Shown one piece after another: positions 3,236-6,223 of a stretch of DNA of 33,541 nt. Where the stretch lies: the IMG/VR virus record IMGVR_UViG_3300037493_003110, positions 1 through 33,541 of that record; one strand, 5' to 3'. The position numbers and the translations under genes were made by a program. The notes beneath the pieces are model-generated. The model worked only from the letters and a program-made list of their open reading frames with translations. It was not told where the DNA came from and searched no databases. Position 1 is the stretch's first letter. Every line of letters starts with the position of its first letter. Origin of the DNA: a virus.

Positions 3236-3480
3236 CGCTCCACCTCGATCGCGAGGTCGACGGCCGCTCGACGAACCACGATCTGCTCCGAGCACGGTCG
3301 GATGTCGTACCGCCTCGCTAGGGTCGTCGCCGACCACCGGGCATCCGACCCGATGGACTGGACCTCGTCGCAGACCAGCTCATCGGAGCCGACCCACACG
3401 ATCCTCGCGGTCACTGACAGCCATTCGCCGATCACCATAAAGTATCGATGCCCCACGATGTAGGGCGTTTCTCCGGTCAT
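3232..3480 (-). CDS. Small hypothetical protein
   Basis: An 82-residue protein, probably beta-rich at its start (YIVGHRYFMVIGEWLSVTAR). The layout of a GxxYF start followed by a GxxxxV.........EL strand recalls small phage proteins of unknown function, a weak resemblance only. GGGAGG precedes the ATG at 3480, which overlaps the resolvase stop as ATGA. Confidence 0.65.
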   Translation of the reverse strand: MTGETPYIVGHRYFMVIGEWLSVTARIVWVGSDELVCDEVQSIGSDARWSATTLARRYDIRPCSEQIVVRRAAVDLAIEVER

Positions 3481-3944
3481 CCTCGCCTCCCGATCTCACG
3501 TGCGGTCGCGACTGCGACCCAGTGTGCATCTGCCTCGTCGTCCGTCTCGCAGCGGTGGCCCCAACGGGACATCACCGCCGCGATCATCTCATCCTTCCCC
3601 GCGTTTCCCTTGCCGGTTGCTATGCGCTTGATCGTCCCGACCGGGATCGACGTGTAGGGCGTGCCGTGTGCCTCAGCGACGTGCTGAATGACGCCCACGA
3701 TCGCGCCATAGACATGTGCCGCGTCGGTGCCGGCATGTCGCCGCACCTCTTCGTACCCGATGGCCTCGATCTGGTGCGCGCCCAGGATGACCTGGAGGCT
3801 GTGCTGGAGTCGGAGCCATCCGACGCCCGCCCCCTCCCACCGAGACCGCACCGAGAGATCCCAAGCGCCCGAGCCGACGCGCCGGTCCCCTTCGCCGATG
3901 ATCGCCCACCCGCACGAAAGGCCGGGATCGATTCCGAGGATCAT
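3477..3944 (-). CDS. RuvC-like Holliday junction resolvase
   Basis: A 155-residue RNase H-fold nuclease of the RuvC type. Visible features: MILGIDPGLSCGWA at the N-terminus with the first catalytic Asp, a Glu in YEEVRRH about a third of the way in, GTIKRIATGKGNAGKDEM, and DDEADAHWVAVA near the C-terminus with the last catalytic acidic residues. Such enzymes cut branched DNA so replicated phage DNA can be packaged. Length fits phage RuvC-like enzymes, slightly shorter than bacterial RuvC. The start at 3944 was chosen because it overlaps the methyltransferase stop as ATGA, rather than the ATG eight codons upstream. Confidence 0.88.
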   Translation of the reverse strand: MILGIDPGLSCGWAIIGEGDRRVGSGAWDLSVRSRWEGAGVGWLRLQHSLQVILGAHQIEAIGYEEVRRHAGTDAAHVYGAIVGVIQHVAEAHGTPYTSIPVGTIKRIATGKGNAGKDEMIAAVMSRWGHRCETDDEADAHWVAVATAREIGRRG

Positions 3945-4813
3945 AGTCCCTCCATCAGAGTTCGCCACGCAAGCGCCGCCACCGCTGGAACTTGTCCGTT
4001 TCCAAGGGCTCTAAGTCGGTCCACCCTAGAGGCCACCCCATGAGCCACTCGACCCACGTTGGGTTCAGCGGCCCACCAACTGCATTCGGCAATTGCTCGC
4101 CTTTCTTGTTCCCTCCTCGGTCGTGGTAGGTTTTTTTGTTTGGGTGCCTGTAATCTCTCGCCGCTGGTGTTGGCCATTTCTTTACAAGCGGAGCTATAGG
4201 GGTCAATGTCCCAATCTTCGACGCTTGGACACTCGCAGTCGTATGCGTGCTGGTCGTGCAGGTTGCACCACCATTCGTCGCAACATAAACATTGCTCCCA
4301 TATGGTGCGATCTCCTGTTTCATCGACGCCGACGATCCAGATCCGCTGTCGATGGTGCGGCGCCCCGACGTCTGCCGCTCCCAGAGTACCCCAAGTCGAA
4401 GCATACCCCAACGAGGCAAGGTCACCGATGACGTCGGTAAGTCCTCGCTGAATAAGCATTGGTGAGTTTTCCACGAACACGTAGCGCGGTCGTACTTCGT
4501 CAATGATTCTCGCCATTTCTCGCCACAGTCCGCTGCGTTCTCCGTCGATGCCGGCGCCCTTTCCGGCGACGGAGATATCCTGGCAAGGGAATCCGCCAGA
4601 AACCACGTCAATACGTCCGCGCCATGCTGTTCCGTCAAAGGTGCATACGTCATCCCAGATCGGGAACGGCGCGAGGCTTCCGTCGTTTTGACGTGCGATG
4701 AGTACCCCGGCGGCGTAGGGGTCACGTTCGACAGCGCAAACGGTTCGCCATCCGAGGAGGTGGCCTCCGAGTATGCCGCCGCCAGCGCCCGCGAATAGAG
4801 CCAGCTCATTCAC
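3941..4813 (-). CDS. DNA (cytosine-5) methyltransferase
   Basis: A 290-residue C5 cytosine methyltransferase with motif order intact: FAGAGGG (residues 7-13, SAM binding), ERDPYA (29-34), GGFPCQDIS (73-81, catalytic Cys77), ENS in place of the usual ENV (115-117), QRIWIVG (156-162) and RVDRLRALGNGQVP (263-276). A cysteine/histidine cluster at 175-195 sits in the expected target-recognition region. The start is GTG at 4813, four bases into the upstream stop (GTGA), with GGGAGGAAAC just ahead. It probably methylates phage DNA to evade restriction. The gene is overlapped for nearly all its length by another open frame (3955-4809). Confidence 0.93.
   Translation of the reverse strand: MNELALFAGAGGGILGGHLLGWRTVCAVERDPYAAGVLIARQNDGSLAPFPIWDDVCTFDGTAWRGRIDVVSGGFPCQDISVAGKGAGIDGERSGLWREMARIIDEVRPRYVFVENSPMLIQRGLTDVIGDLASLGYASTWGTLGAADVGAPHHRQRIWIVGVDETGDRTIWEQCLCCDEWWCNLHDQHAYDCECPSVEDWDIDPYSSACKEMANTSGERLQAPKQKNLPRPRREQERRAIAECSWWAAEPNVGRVAHGVASRVDRLRALGNGQVPAVAALAWRTLMEGL
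3955..4809 (-). CDS. Overlapping reading frame inside the cytosine methyltransferase gene
   Basis: A 284-codon frame, shifted relative to the methyltransferase, runs from ATG 4809, four bases after the methyltransferase GTG, to a stop 14 bases before its stop. Both starts can use the same GGGAGG site. The product does not look like random shadow: it has MSWLYSRALAAAYSE at the start, a Trp/Cys-containing middle (CGEKWRESLTKYDRATCSW), KKWPTPAARDYR near 211-221 and LNPTWVEWLMGWPLGWTDL near 248-266. From memory, proteins with these blocks recur in phage and bacterial genomes as hypothetical proteins, which would mean true dual coding. The function is unknown. Expression cannot be shown here. Confidence 0.6.
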   Translation of the reverse strand: MSWLYSRALAAAYSEATSSDGEPFALSNVTPTPPGYSSHVKTTEASRRSRSGMTYAPLTEQHGADVLTWFLADSLARISPSPERAPASTENAADCGEKWRESLTKYDRATCSWKTHQCLFSEDLPTSSVTLPRWGMLRLGVLWERQTSGRRTIDSGSGSSASMKQEIAPYGSNVYVATNGGATCTTSTHTTASVQASKIGTLTPIAPLVKKWPTPAARDYRHPNKKTYHDRGGNKKGEQLPNAVGGPLNPTWVEWLMGWPLGWTDLEPLETDKFQRWRRLRGEL

Positions 4814-5019
4814 GTTTCCTCCCGTCGCTTGAACGCTTGATACTCGGCCTCGAAACACCCGCATAGGCGCCCGATATGCGCCTCATACGACTCGCCGCAC
4901 GATCGACACCGACGAATCCGAGGCGGCGGTGTGGTGTCGCCGGGGATGTACTTGATCCGAGTTCGGCCCTTGACTATCGCGGTCTCGACCTTCGGTCCCG
5001 AGCTGTACTTCCGGTTCAT
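4810..5019 (-). CDS. Small zinc-ribbon-like protein
   Basis: A 69-residue basic protein with a likely zinc-binding knuckle, CRSCGESYEAHIGRLCGC, at about residues 38-55. Small zinc proteins like this often bind nucleic acid or protein, but the role is not recognised. AGGAGG precedes the ATG at 5019, which overlaps the upstream stop. Its own stop overlaps the methyltransferase GTG, so the two are probably translationally coupled. Confidence 0.72.
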   Translation of the reverse strand: MNRKYSSGPKVETAIVKGRTRIKYIPGDTTPPPRIRRCRSCGESYEAHIGRLCGCFEAEYQAFKRREET

Positions 5020-5532: not shown

Positions 5533-5666
5533 GCCTCACCTACCAGAAACCAGCTCGGACCCTGATAGGCCCAGATGATCATGGCCGCGAGCAGCGCGCG
5601 ATCGTCGCCGCCCTGATATCGCTCCACGGCTGCATATGACAGCCGGATCACGTCTCTAAGGGTCAT
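5529..5666 (-). CDS. Very small hypothetical protein
   Basis: A 45-residue frame beginning MTLRDVIRLSYAAVERYQGG. The start at 5666 overlaps the QueC stop as ATGA, and its stop overlaps the next start the same way; that perfect chaining is the main evidence that it is real. The function is unknown. Confidence 0.6.
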   Translation of the reverse strand: MTLRDVIRLSYAAVERYQGGDDRALLAAMIIWAYQGPSWFLVGEA

Positions 5667-6223
5667 CGTGCGCCTCGCGAGACACATGAAGCGCAGGCGC
5701 CACACGGAACACCGCCGCGGGGTTGATAGCAGGACCAACACCCATCCAGTATCTTGAACGCGGCGGCCTCGGCGATGACCTCCGGCTTAGTGGTATCCAG
5801 CAACGGCGCGCGGACGTCGACGCCATAGGCGCGACGACAAAGATCGCCGACGGCGCCGACAAACTCCGGGCGGCAGTCGGTGTAATCCTTCGCGTCGTCG
5901 CCGATCGCGCCAAACTGCACCTCGCGGACCCCGTTCTCGGCGGCGTAGTTGACCGCCCACGCGATCAATGCAAGGTTGCGCCCAGCCATCACCCGTGGGC
6001 CCGCGACACCCACGCCAATCGCCATTGACCCACGCAGCGGGCAACCGAGCTCAACGACCGGCACGCCGAATCGCTCGCCCCAAAGCAGCACCGCGCGGCG
6101 CTCTTCGTCCACAGCCGGCTGGCCAAAGGCAATGAAAACAACGGAGTGCAGTCGTTTCTCACGAAGCGCGCGCATGGCGAGCACCGTGGAATCGACGCCA
6201 CCCGAGCACAGGACGACAATCAT
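5663..6223 (-). CDS. queC: 7-cyano-7-deazaguanine synthase (QueC)
   Basis: A 186-residue ATP-dependent enzyme converting 7-carboxy-7-deazaguanine (CDG) and ammonia to preQ0. It has the PP-loop SGGVDST at residues 7-13, the family segment DYTDCRPEF near 113-121, and zinc ligands Cys165, Cys174, Cys177 and Cys180 in CWSCYQP...PCGACASC. It is shorter than the usual bacterial 220 or so residues. It overlaps the DpdA-like gene by ATGA, so both are probably made together. Phage QueC normally supplies preQ0 for insertion into phage DNA. No FolE, QueD or QueE is seen, so CDG must come from the host. Family assignment is strong; the DNA-modification role follows from the neighbour. Confidence 0.93.
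   Translation of the reverse strand: MIVVLCSGGVDSTVLAMRALREKRLHSVVFIAFGQPAVDEERRAVLLWGERFGVPVVELGCPLRGSMAIGVGVAGPRVMAGRNLALIAWAVNYAAENGVREVQFGAIGDDAKDYTDCRPEFVGAVGDLCRRAYGVDVRAPLLDTTKPEVIAEAAAFKILDGCWSCYQPRGGVPCGACASCVSRGAR

Follow-up and report, generated by a model that had tools for sequence, protein, structure and literature searches.

Organization of the locus

The window, by which we mean the whole stretch of 33,541 nucleotides that was analysed, carries on its minus strand a C5-cytosine DNA methyltransferase frame, here called α, and a second long frame, β, which is nested in it. The features of this locus are the following.

3941..4813, minus strand: α, C5-cytosine DNA methyltransferase frame, GTG start, 290 aa (PF00145, phrog_363)
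3955..4809, minus strand: β, second subunit frame (putative), +1 relative to α, ATG start, 284 aa
4818..4823, minus strand: Shine-Dalgarno sequence GGGAGG, common to the α and β starts (from the sequence)
4807..4813, minus strand: coupled start box GTGAATG, made up of the α GTG, the TGA of the upstream ORF and the β ATG (from the sequence)
4810..5019, minus strand: small ORF upstream (69 aa); its TGA shares bases with the α start codon and directly precedes the β ATG
4580..4588, minus strand: α motif IV, PCQ, with the catalytic cysteine
4147..4176, minus strand: β WPTPAARDYR block, possible TL motif variant
4021..4068, minus strand: β LNPTWVEWLMGWPLGW, motif IX-like block, invariant or nearly so (hhalign)
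4016..4066, minus strand: α EPNVGRVAHGVASRVDR, on bases common to the β motif IX-like block
3986..4003, minus strand: α motif X (GNGQVP)

The α frame begins with the GTG at 4813 and its stop codon is at 3943-3941, while β begins with the ATG at 4809, 4 nt past the α GTG, and its stop codon at 3957-3955 lies 14 nt short of the end of the α stop. The original prediction of a 284-codon second frame across nearly the whole methyltransferase gene had the coordinates, the sequence blocks and both offsets right, and the single ribosome site that it proposed for the two frames is the GGGAGG at 4823-4818. Both blocks that it singled out, WPTPAARDYR and LNPTWVEWLMGWPLGWTDL, are found in β, and the latter does share its bases with α, where they encode EPNVGRVAHGVASRVDRL. 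It was also right that comparable blocks turn up in phage proteins annotated as hypothetical. The TGA at 4812-4810, between the two starts, is the stop codon of the upstream ORF, whose 69-aa product (4810-5019, minus strand) is small and Cys-rich (CRSC...CGC). A run of seven A (AAACAAAAAAACC) lies inside the overlap at about 4128-4142 of the window, minus strand, and is a possible slippery site.

The second frame is open and constrained in homologous genes

Relatives of the locus were taken from IMG/VR by way of β and, independently, by way of α, with some contigs present in both sets. The α-recruited set consists of 80 loci with 48-61% identity to α, and in 79 of these the +1 frame is uninterrupted for 232-349 codons; the exception, L121, keeps 197. 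When the codons of α in the window were shuffled synonymously 300 times, the +1 frame acquired 7.6 stops on average and none of the 300 shuffles was stop-free. In 100 non-redundant divergent genes, which were picked with long β frames, no β stop was seen against 498 expected from synonymous shuffling within each gene; because of how these genes were chosen, it is the 79 of 80 that gives the unbiased figure for openness. The third frame of the same 100 genes has 1653 stops against 1313 expected. The part of α that shows no conservation runs from codon 166 to a point 45 codons short of the end; synonymous shuffling predicts 92 β stops there, and none was seen. In two loci, L121 and L084, the β frame is interrupted and 197 and 157 codons, respectively, are open at the 3' end, which may reflect decay, sequencing error or another architecture.

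Synonymous sites were compared in both frames. Fourfold-degenerate sites of α are identical in 58.6% of cases against 30.0% expected from codon usage (in pairs with about 60% α identity), and this rises to 80% in the region of motifs IX and X; fourfold sites of β are identical in 66% against 29% expected. Since identity exceeds expectation in α and in β, both frames are constrained. The control was a set of 58 canonical viral C5-methyltransferases with motif IX in frame, found with a query from L245 and compared at matched identity. In these, fourfold identity is 28.2% against 27.3% expected, and the +1 frame has 11.9 stops per gene against 11.4 expected. The helicase gene of the window was also tried as a control and no homologues of it were found. 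Pairwise β identity against shuffled codons was not decisive by itself, and fourfold sites and the control were adopted because the +2 frame, too, exceeds its null when bases are conserved. Two features of a conserved same-strand overlapping gene pair are seen here, namely, a frame open beyond chance in divergent homologues and synonymous sites constrained relative to a matched control. The alignments show that the α and β frames are both under purifying selection, as far as this can be judged from sequence comparison, and on the same grounds β is confirmed as a real gene. Two findings had been named in advance as counting against it, routine stops in the β frame of homologues and lack of constraint on the second frame; neither was made.

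A chance open frame arising from codon bias is ruled out by the synonymous shuffling together with the canonical control. A broader form of this argument is that the β frame is a by-product of the constraints on α and of codon bias, or that an RNA or DNA element fixes the bases, and part of the similarity among β sequences does follow from α, which is strongly conserved. This explanation is hardly credible: canonical methyltransferases of equal divergence lack both an open +1 frame and constraint on their synonymous sites, stops in the other frame exceed expectation, and β stays open across the unconserved region of α. In addition, the β start codon survives amino acid changes in α: codon 2 of α is AAT, CAT or CGT (Asn, His or Arg) and the ATG or GTG of β is always kept. 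AAC never occurs at this codon, yet it is the commoner Asn codon elsewhere in α (753 AAC and 457 AAT).

The α frame encodes a catalytic domain without motif IX

The α protein contains motifs I-VIII, with PCQ and ENS, and motif X; motif IX is absent. Pfam PF00145 matches it with an E value of 1.2e-33 over residues 4-166 only, and it also matches phrog_363. P76 and C77 are invariant among its relatives and Q78 is conserved in at least 90%. Thus, α has what defines a C5-cytosine DNA methyltransferase in motifs I, IV (PCQ), VI, VIII and X and a Rossmann-like catalytic domain, but a recognition domain and motif IX were not found in the same chain, there being no LTPRExxRLQGFP-like block in residues 166-270. 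AF2 models the catalytic core of α with confidence and places a motif X helix at the C-terminus, and pLDDT is below 50 at residues 182-190, 192-226 and 249-270. (Three rows from the annotated phage collection were left out of the alignments for structure prediction.) With Foldseek the model aligns to M.HhaI and M.HaeIII over about 173 columns. The region of α where the recognition domain would be expected is unconserved and predicted to be disordered, which suggests that the recognition domain lies outside α.

In α of relatives from Clostridia and Paenibacillus a segment such as GLGGMAHGLPERMDG stands opposite the motif IX-like block of β, and it is followed by a separate EPxxIPRxxxxxxxRxxRLKTLGN that leads into motif X. 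In the family of the window the GLGGMAHGLPERMDG-type and the EPxxIPR-type segments are merged. Because these segments are separate in the one group and merged in the other, we infer that the α signature GRVAHGVxxRVDR may be largely a shadow of β.

The β frame most likely supplies the recognition region and motif IX

When the C-termini of β were aligned by hhalign to full-length canonical methyltransferases, LNPxWVEWLMGFPxGW fell on LTPRECARLMGFPDTF, that is, motif IX, in register. This is the best local match in the whole protein, yet it is weak (E about 0.002, probability 12-16%), and the conserved Arg and Glu of motif IX are not obvious in β. T214 and P215 in the WPTPAARDYR block are nearly invariant. 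C5-methyltransferases have a TL motif, with the consensus P[STCA]PT[ILV], 10-50 residues ahead of motif IX (PMC2413257), and the resemblance of the WPTP block to it offers a lead. The profile phrog_1008 matches β with an E value of 1.8e-18 over residues 46-235. Searches of PDB, by sequence and by Foldseek fold, and of Pfam gave no matches for β. In ten bacterial genomes, methyltransferases with an in-frame motif IX of the RxLTPRExARLMGFP type have no frame for the C-terminal part of β and those lacking it have one, although 9 of the 11 β-bearing methyltransferase loci were the reason why those genomes were chosen. The most likely explanation of these alignments is that β supplies the target-recognition region and the motif IX that are missing from α.

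The strongest evidence for β as the C-terminal recognition half comes from the frames of three rearranged relatives, L168 (Mycobacterium phage Toaka gp83/gp82), L186 (Paraburkholderia adhaesiva) and L216 (a Bacillota MAG). In each of them α terminates once motif VIII has been encoded, and a single ORF in the β frame spans the LNPxWVEWLMGFP region and motif X, so that the β-X chain has the canonical C-terminal order, as in M.AquI. These fused proteins had no Pfam hit.

It could be argued that β, although a genuine overlapping protein, serves as a regulator, a chaperone or an anti-restriction factor and not as the recognition subunit. AF2 gives no stable fold for β alone (pLDDT 57, pTM 0.23), and its variable middle, in which WPTP blocks recur, might be that of a binding protein. 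We consider such a role unlikely because it would leave unexplained why α has no motif IX, why a β block aligns with the canonical one, and why β is joined to motif X in one frame in the three rearranged relatives. Among the functions suggested in the original prediction, that of a methyltransferase partner stands, as the most likely one, and those of a regulator or an anti-restriction factor found no support.

We propose, with a probability of about 0.8, that a single C5-cytosine DNA methyltransferase is made here in two polypeptides, one from each of the overlapping frames. The α frame would give the large catalytic domain with motifs I-VIII, including PCQ and ENS, plus motif X, and the β frame, initiated 4 nt further on with the help of the shared ribosome-binding site, would give the target-recognition region and motif IX. 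We infer that these polypeptides would form a cytosine-methylating enzyme that needs both of them, that its target sequence would be chosen mainly by β, and that its purpose is presumably the protection or marking of phage DNA.

Initiation of β

The start box reads TGAATG in 99 of the 107 relatives that have the +4 arrangement, TGCATG in 4 and TGCGTG in 4, and 90 of the 107 have an SD-like motif. An upstream ORF of at least 60 codons in the β frame terminates at the same TGA in 49 of 96 relatives, and an upstream ORF ending at the TGA of the start box suggests translational coupling. In more distant relatives there is often an ATG, about 172 or about 337 nt inside the α domain, that has an SD-like sequence. 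These starts bear on whether the locus makes one longer protein by programmed frameshifting, with α motifs I-VIII joined to the β recognition region. The domain order of such a protein would be nearly canonical, and relatives rearranged by indels do exist; recovery of motif X, however, would need two opposite shifts, and a product of frameshifting accounts neither for the conserved start that β has of its own nor for the internal ATG with SD that recurs in many clostridial-type relatives. Frameshifting is thus very improbable. Independent initiation of β appears the better fit, because of the conserved start box of β and the recurring internal starts in distant relatives.

Comparison with known two-polypeptide methyltransferases

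The small polypeptide of M.EcoHK31I is encoded in another frame within the gene for the large one. M.EcoHK31I, which recognizes YGGCCR, is a natural two-polypeptide C5-methyltransferase in which motifs I-VIII and X are in the large and motif IX in the smaller polypeptide, and its recognition domain has been placed in the large subunit (PMC3404938). In M.AquI (CYCGRG) the C-terminal polypeptide has the recognition region and motif IX (PMC3404938). Going by these descriptions, α resembles the large subunit of M.EcoHK31I in having motifs I-VIII and X without IX; unlike in that enzyme, the recognition domain here is apparently in β, and β spans nearly the whole α gene, a far larger overlap. As in M.AquI, the second polypeptide would be the one that has the recognition region and motif IX, but motif X, which M.AquI has in the small subunit, is in α here; it is L168, L186 and L216 that look AquI-like in this respect. 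Two-polypeptide C5-methyltransferases, including those with motif IX in the small subunit as in M.EcoHK31I, are already known. The apparently new elements are the near-complete overlap, the recognition region seemingly in β and how widely the family is distributed; the open-access literature yielded no account of such an overlap in phages.

PHROG 1008, a profile of viral proteins annotated 'DNA methyltransferase', matches β and, weakly, motif X of α, and its annotation mentions neither an overlapping frame nor a split enzyme. In Paenibacillus phage Bloom, gp56 and gp57 are nested ORFs, both annotated and both deposited as 'DNA cytosine methyltransferase', and the C-terminus of gp57 is LNPDWVECLMGFPIGWTD; unlike in the window, β of Bloom begins about 200 nt inside α and not 4 nt after the α start. 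Two candidates were rejected. An E. coli plasmid methyltransferase considered as a relative of M.EcoHK31I proved to be canonical and lies beside an NgoMIV-type endonuclease. Relatives of Paracoccus phage Pyei1_p05 have been reported to be active in E. coli (PMC3925955), but the only methyltransferase-like frame found there by profile is a long ORF with in-frame motif IX, and it was not taken as experimental support.

Distribution and annotation

Loci with overlapping β-like C-termini carry the labels Pseudomonadota, Bacillota, Actinomycetota, Verrucomicrobiota, Spirochaetota, Planctomycetota, Bacteroidales, Nitrospirae and Gemmatimonadetes. Such C-termini occur in phages of Paenibacillus, Mycobacterium, Porphyromonas, Synechococcus, Vibrio, Klebsiella, Salmonella, Microcystis and Lacticaseibacillus and also on Leptospira plasmids, and at nearly every locus the β-like blocks sit inside an α gene. 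A profile of the β C-terminus matched in 14 of 299 Pseudomonadota and 4 of 299 Bacillota genomes, each count including the centre genome, which was picked because it has β. All 24 loci matched in these two samples are overlapped by an α frame, and a catalytic domain and motif X were detected in 22 of them. Annotation is uneven: Pseudomonas phage phPA-G has only β annotated (as 'hypothetical'), Acinetobacter phage ABMM1 has only α, and in general the second protein is most often left without annotation or labelled hypothetical. In Salmonella phage S9-5 (L171, 407-1731) the TGA ahead of the β ATG is at the same time the exact end of an adenine methylase gene, and the adenine and the two-frame cytosine methyltransferase appear to be translationally coupled.

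It seems rather probable, with less assurance than for the locus itself, that a large class of phage and prophage C5-methyltransferases in many phyla consists of two subunits, catalytic and recognition, from two frames, that GRVAHGVxxRVDR is partly a shadow of motif IX, and that most entries are half an enzyme. To our knowledge, long same-strand overlapping genes selected in both frames have rarely been established in prokaryotes. The α/β overlap is old and widespread and, with both products probably parts of one enzyme, would be a natural case of one sequence serving two proteins. Many annotated phage cytosine methyltransferases would then be half-enzymes, and their target specificity would have to be sought in β. 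If α were recoded for synthesis or codon optimisation, β would be lost, and α tested by itself in a heterologous host could wrongly be taken for inactive.

Neighbouring genes

Directly downstream of α lies a gene for a RuvC-like Holliday junction resolvase (3477-3944 of the window, minus strand). The ATG with which it probably starts (3944-3942) shares bases with the α stop in an ATGA, GGAGGG lies a short way upstream within the end of α, and the longer GTG start at 3968 given by the ORF finder is probably not the one used. A QueC-like protein is encoded at 5663-6223 on the same strand (PF06508, E=3e-26). Going by this match, the modifications made by the phage may include one of the queuosine type (7-deazaguanine) besides cytosine methylation.
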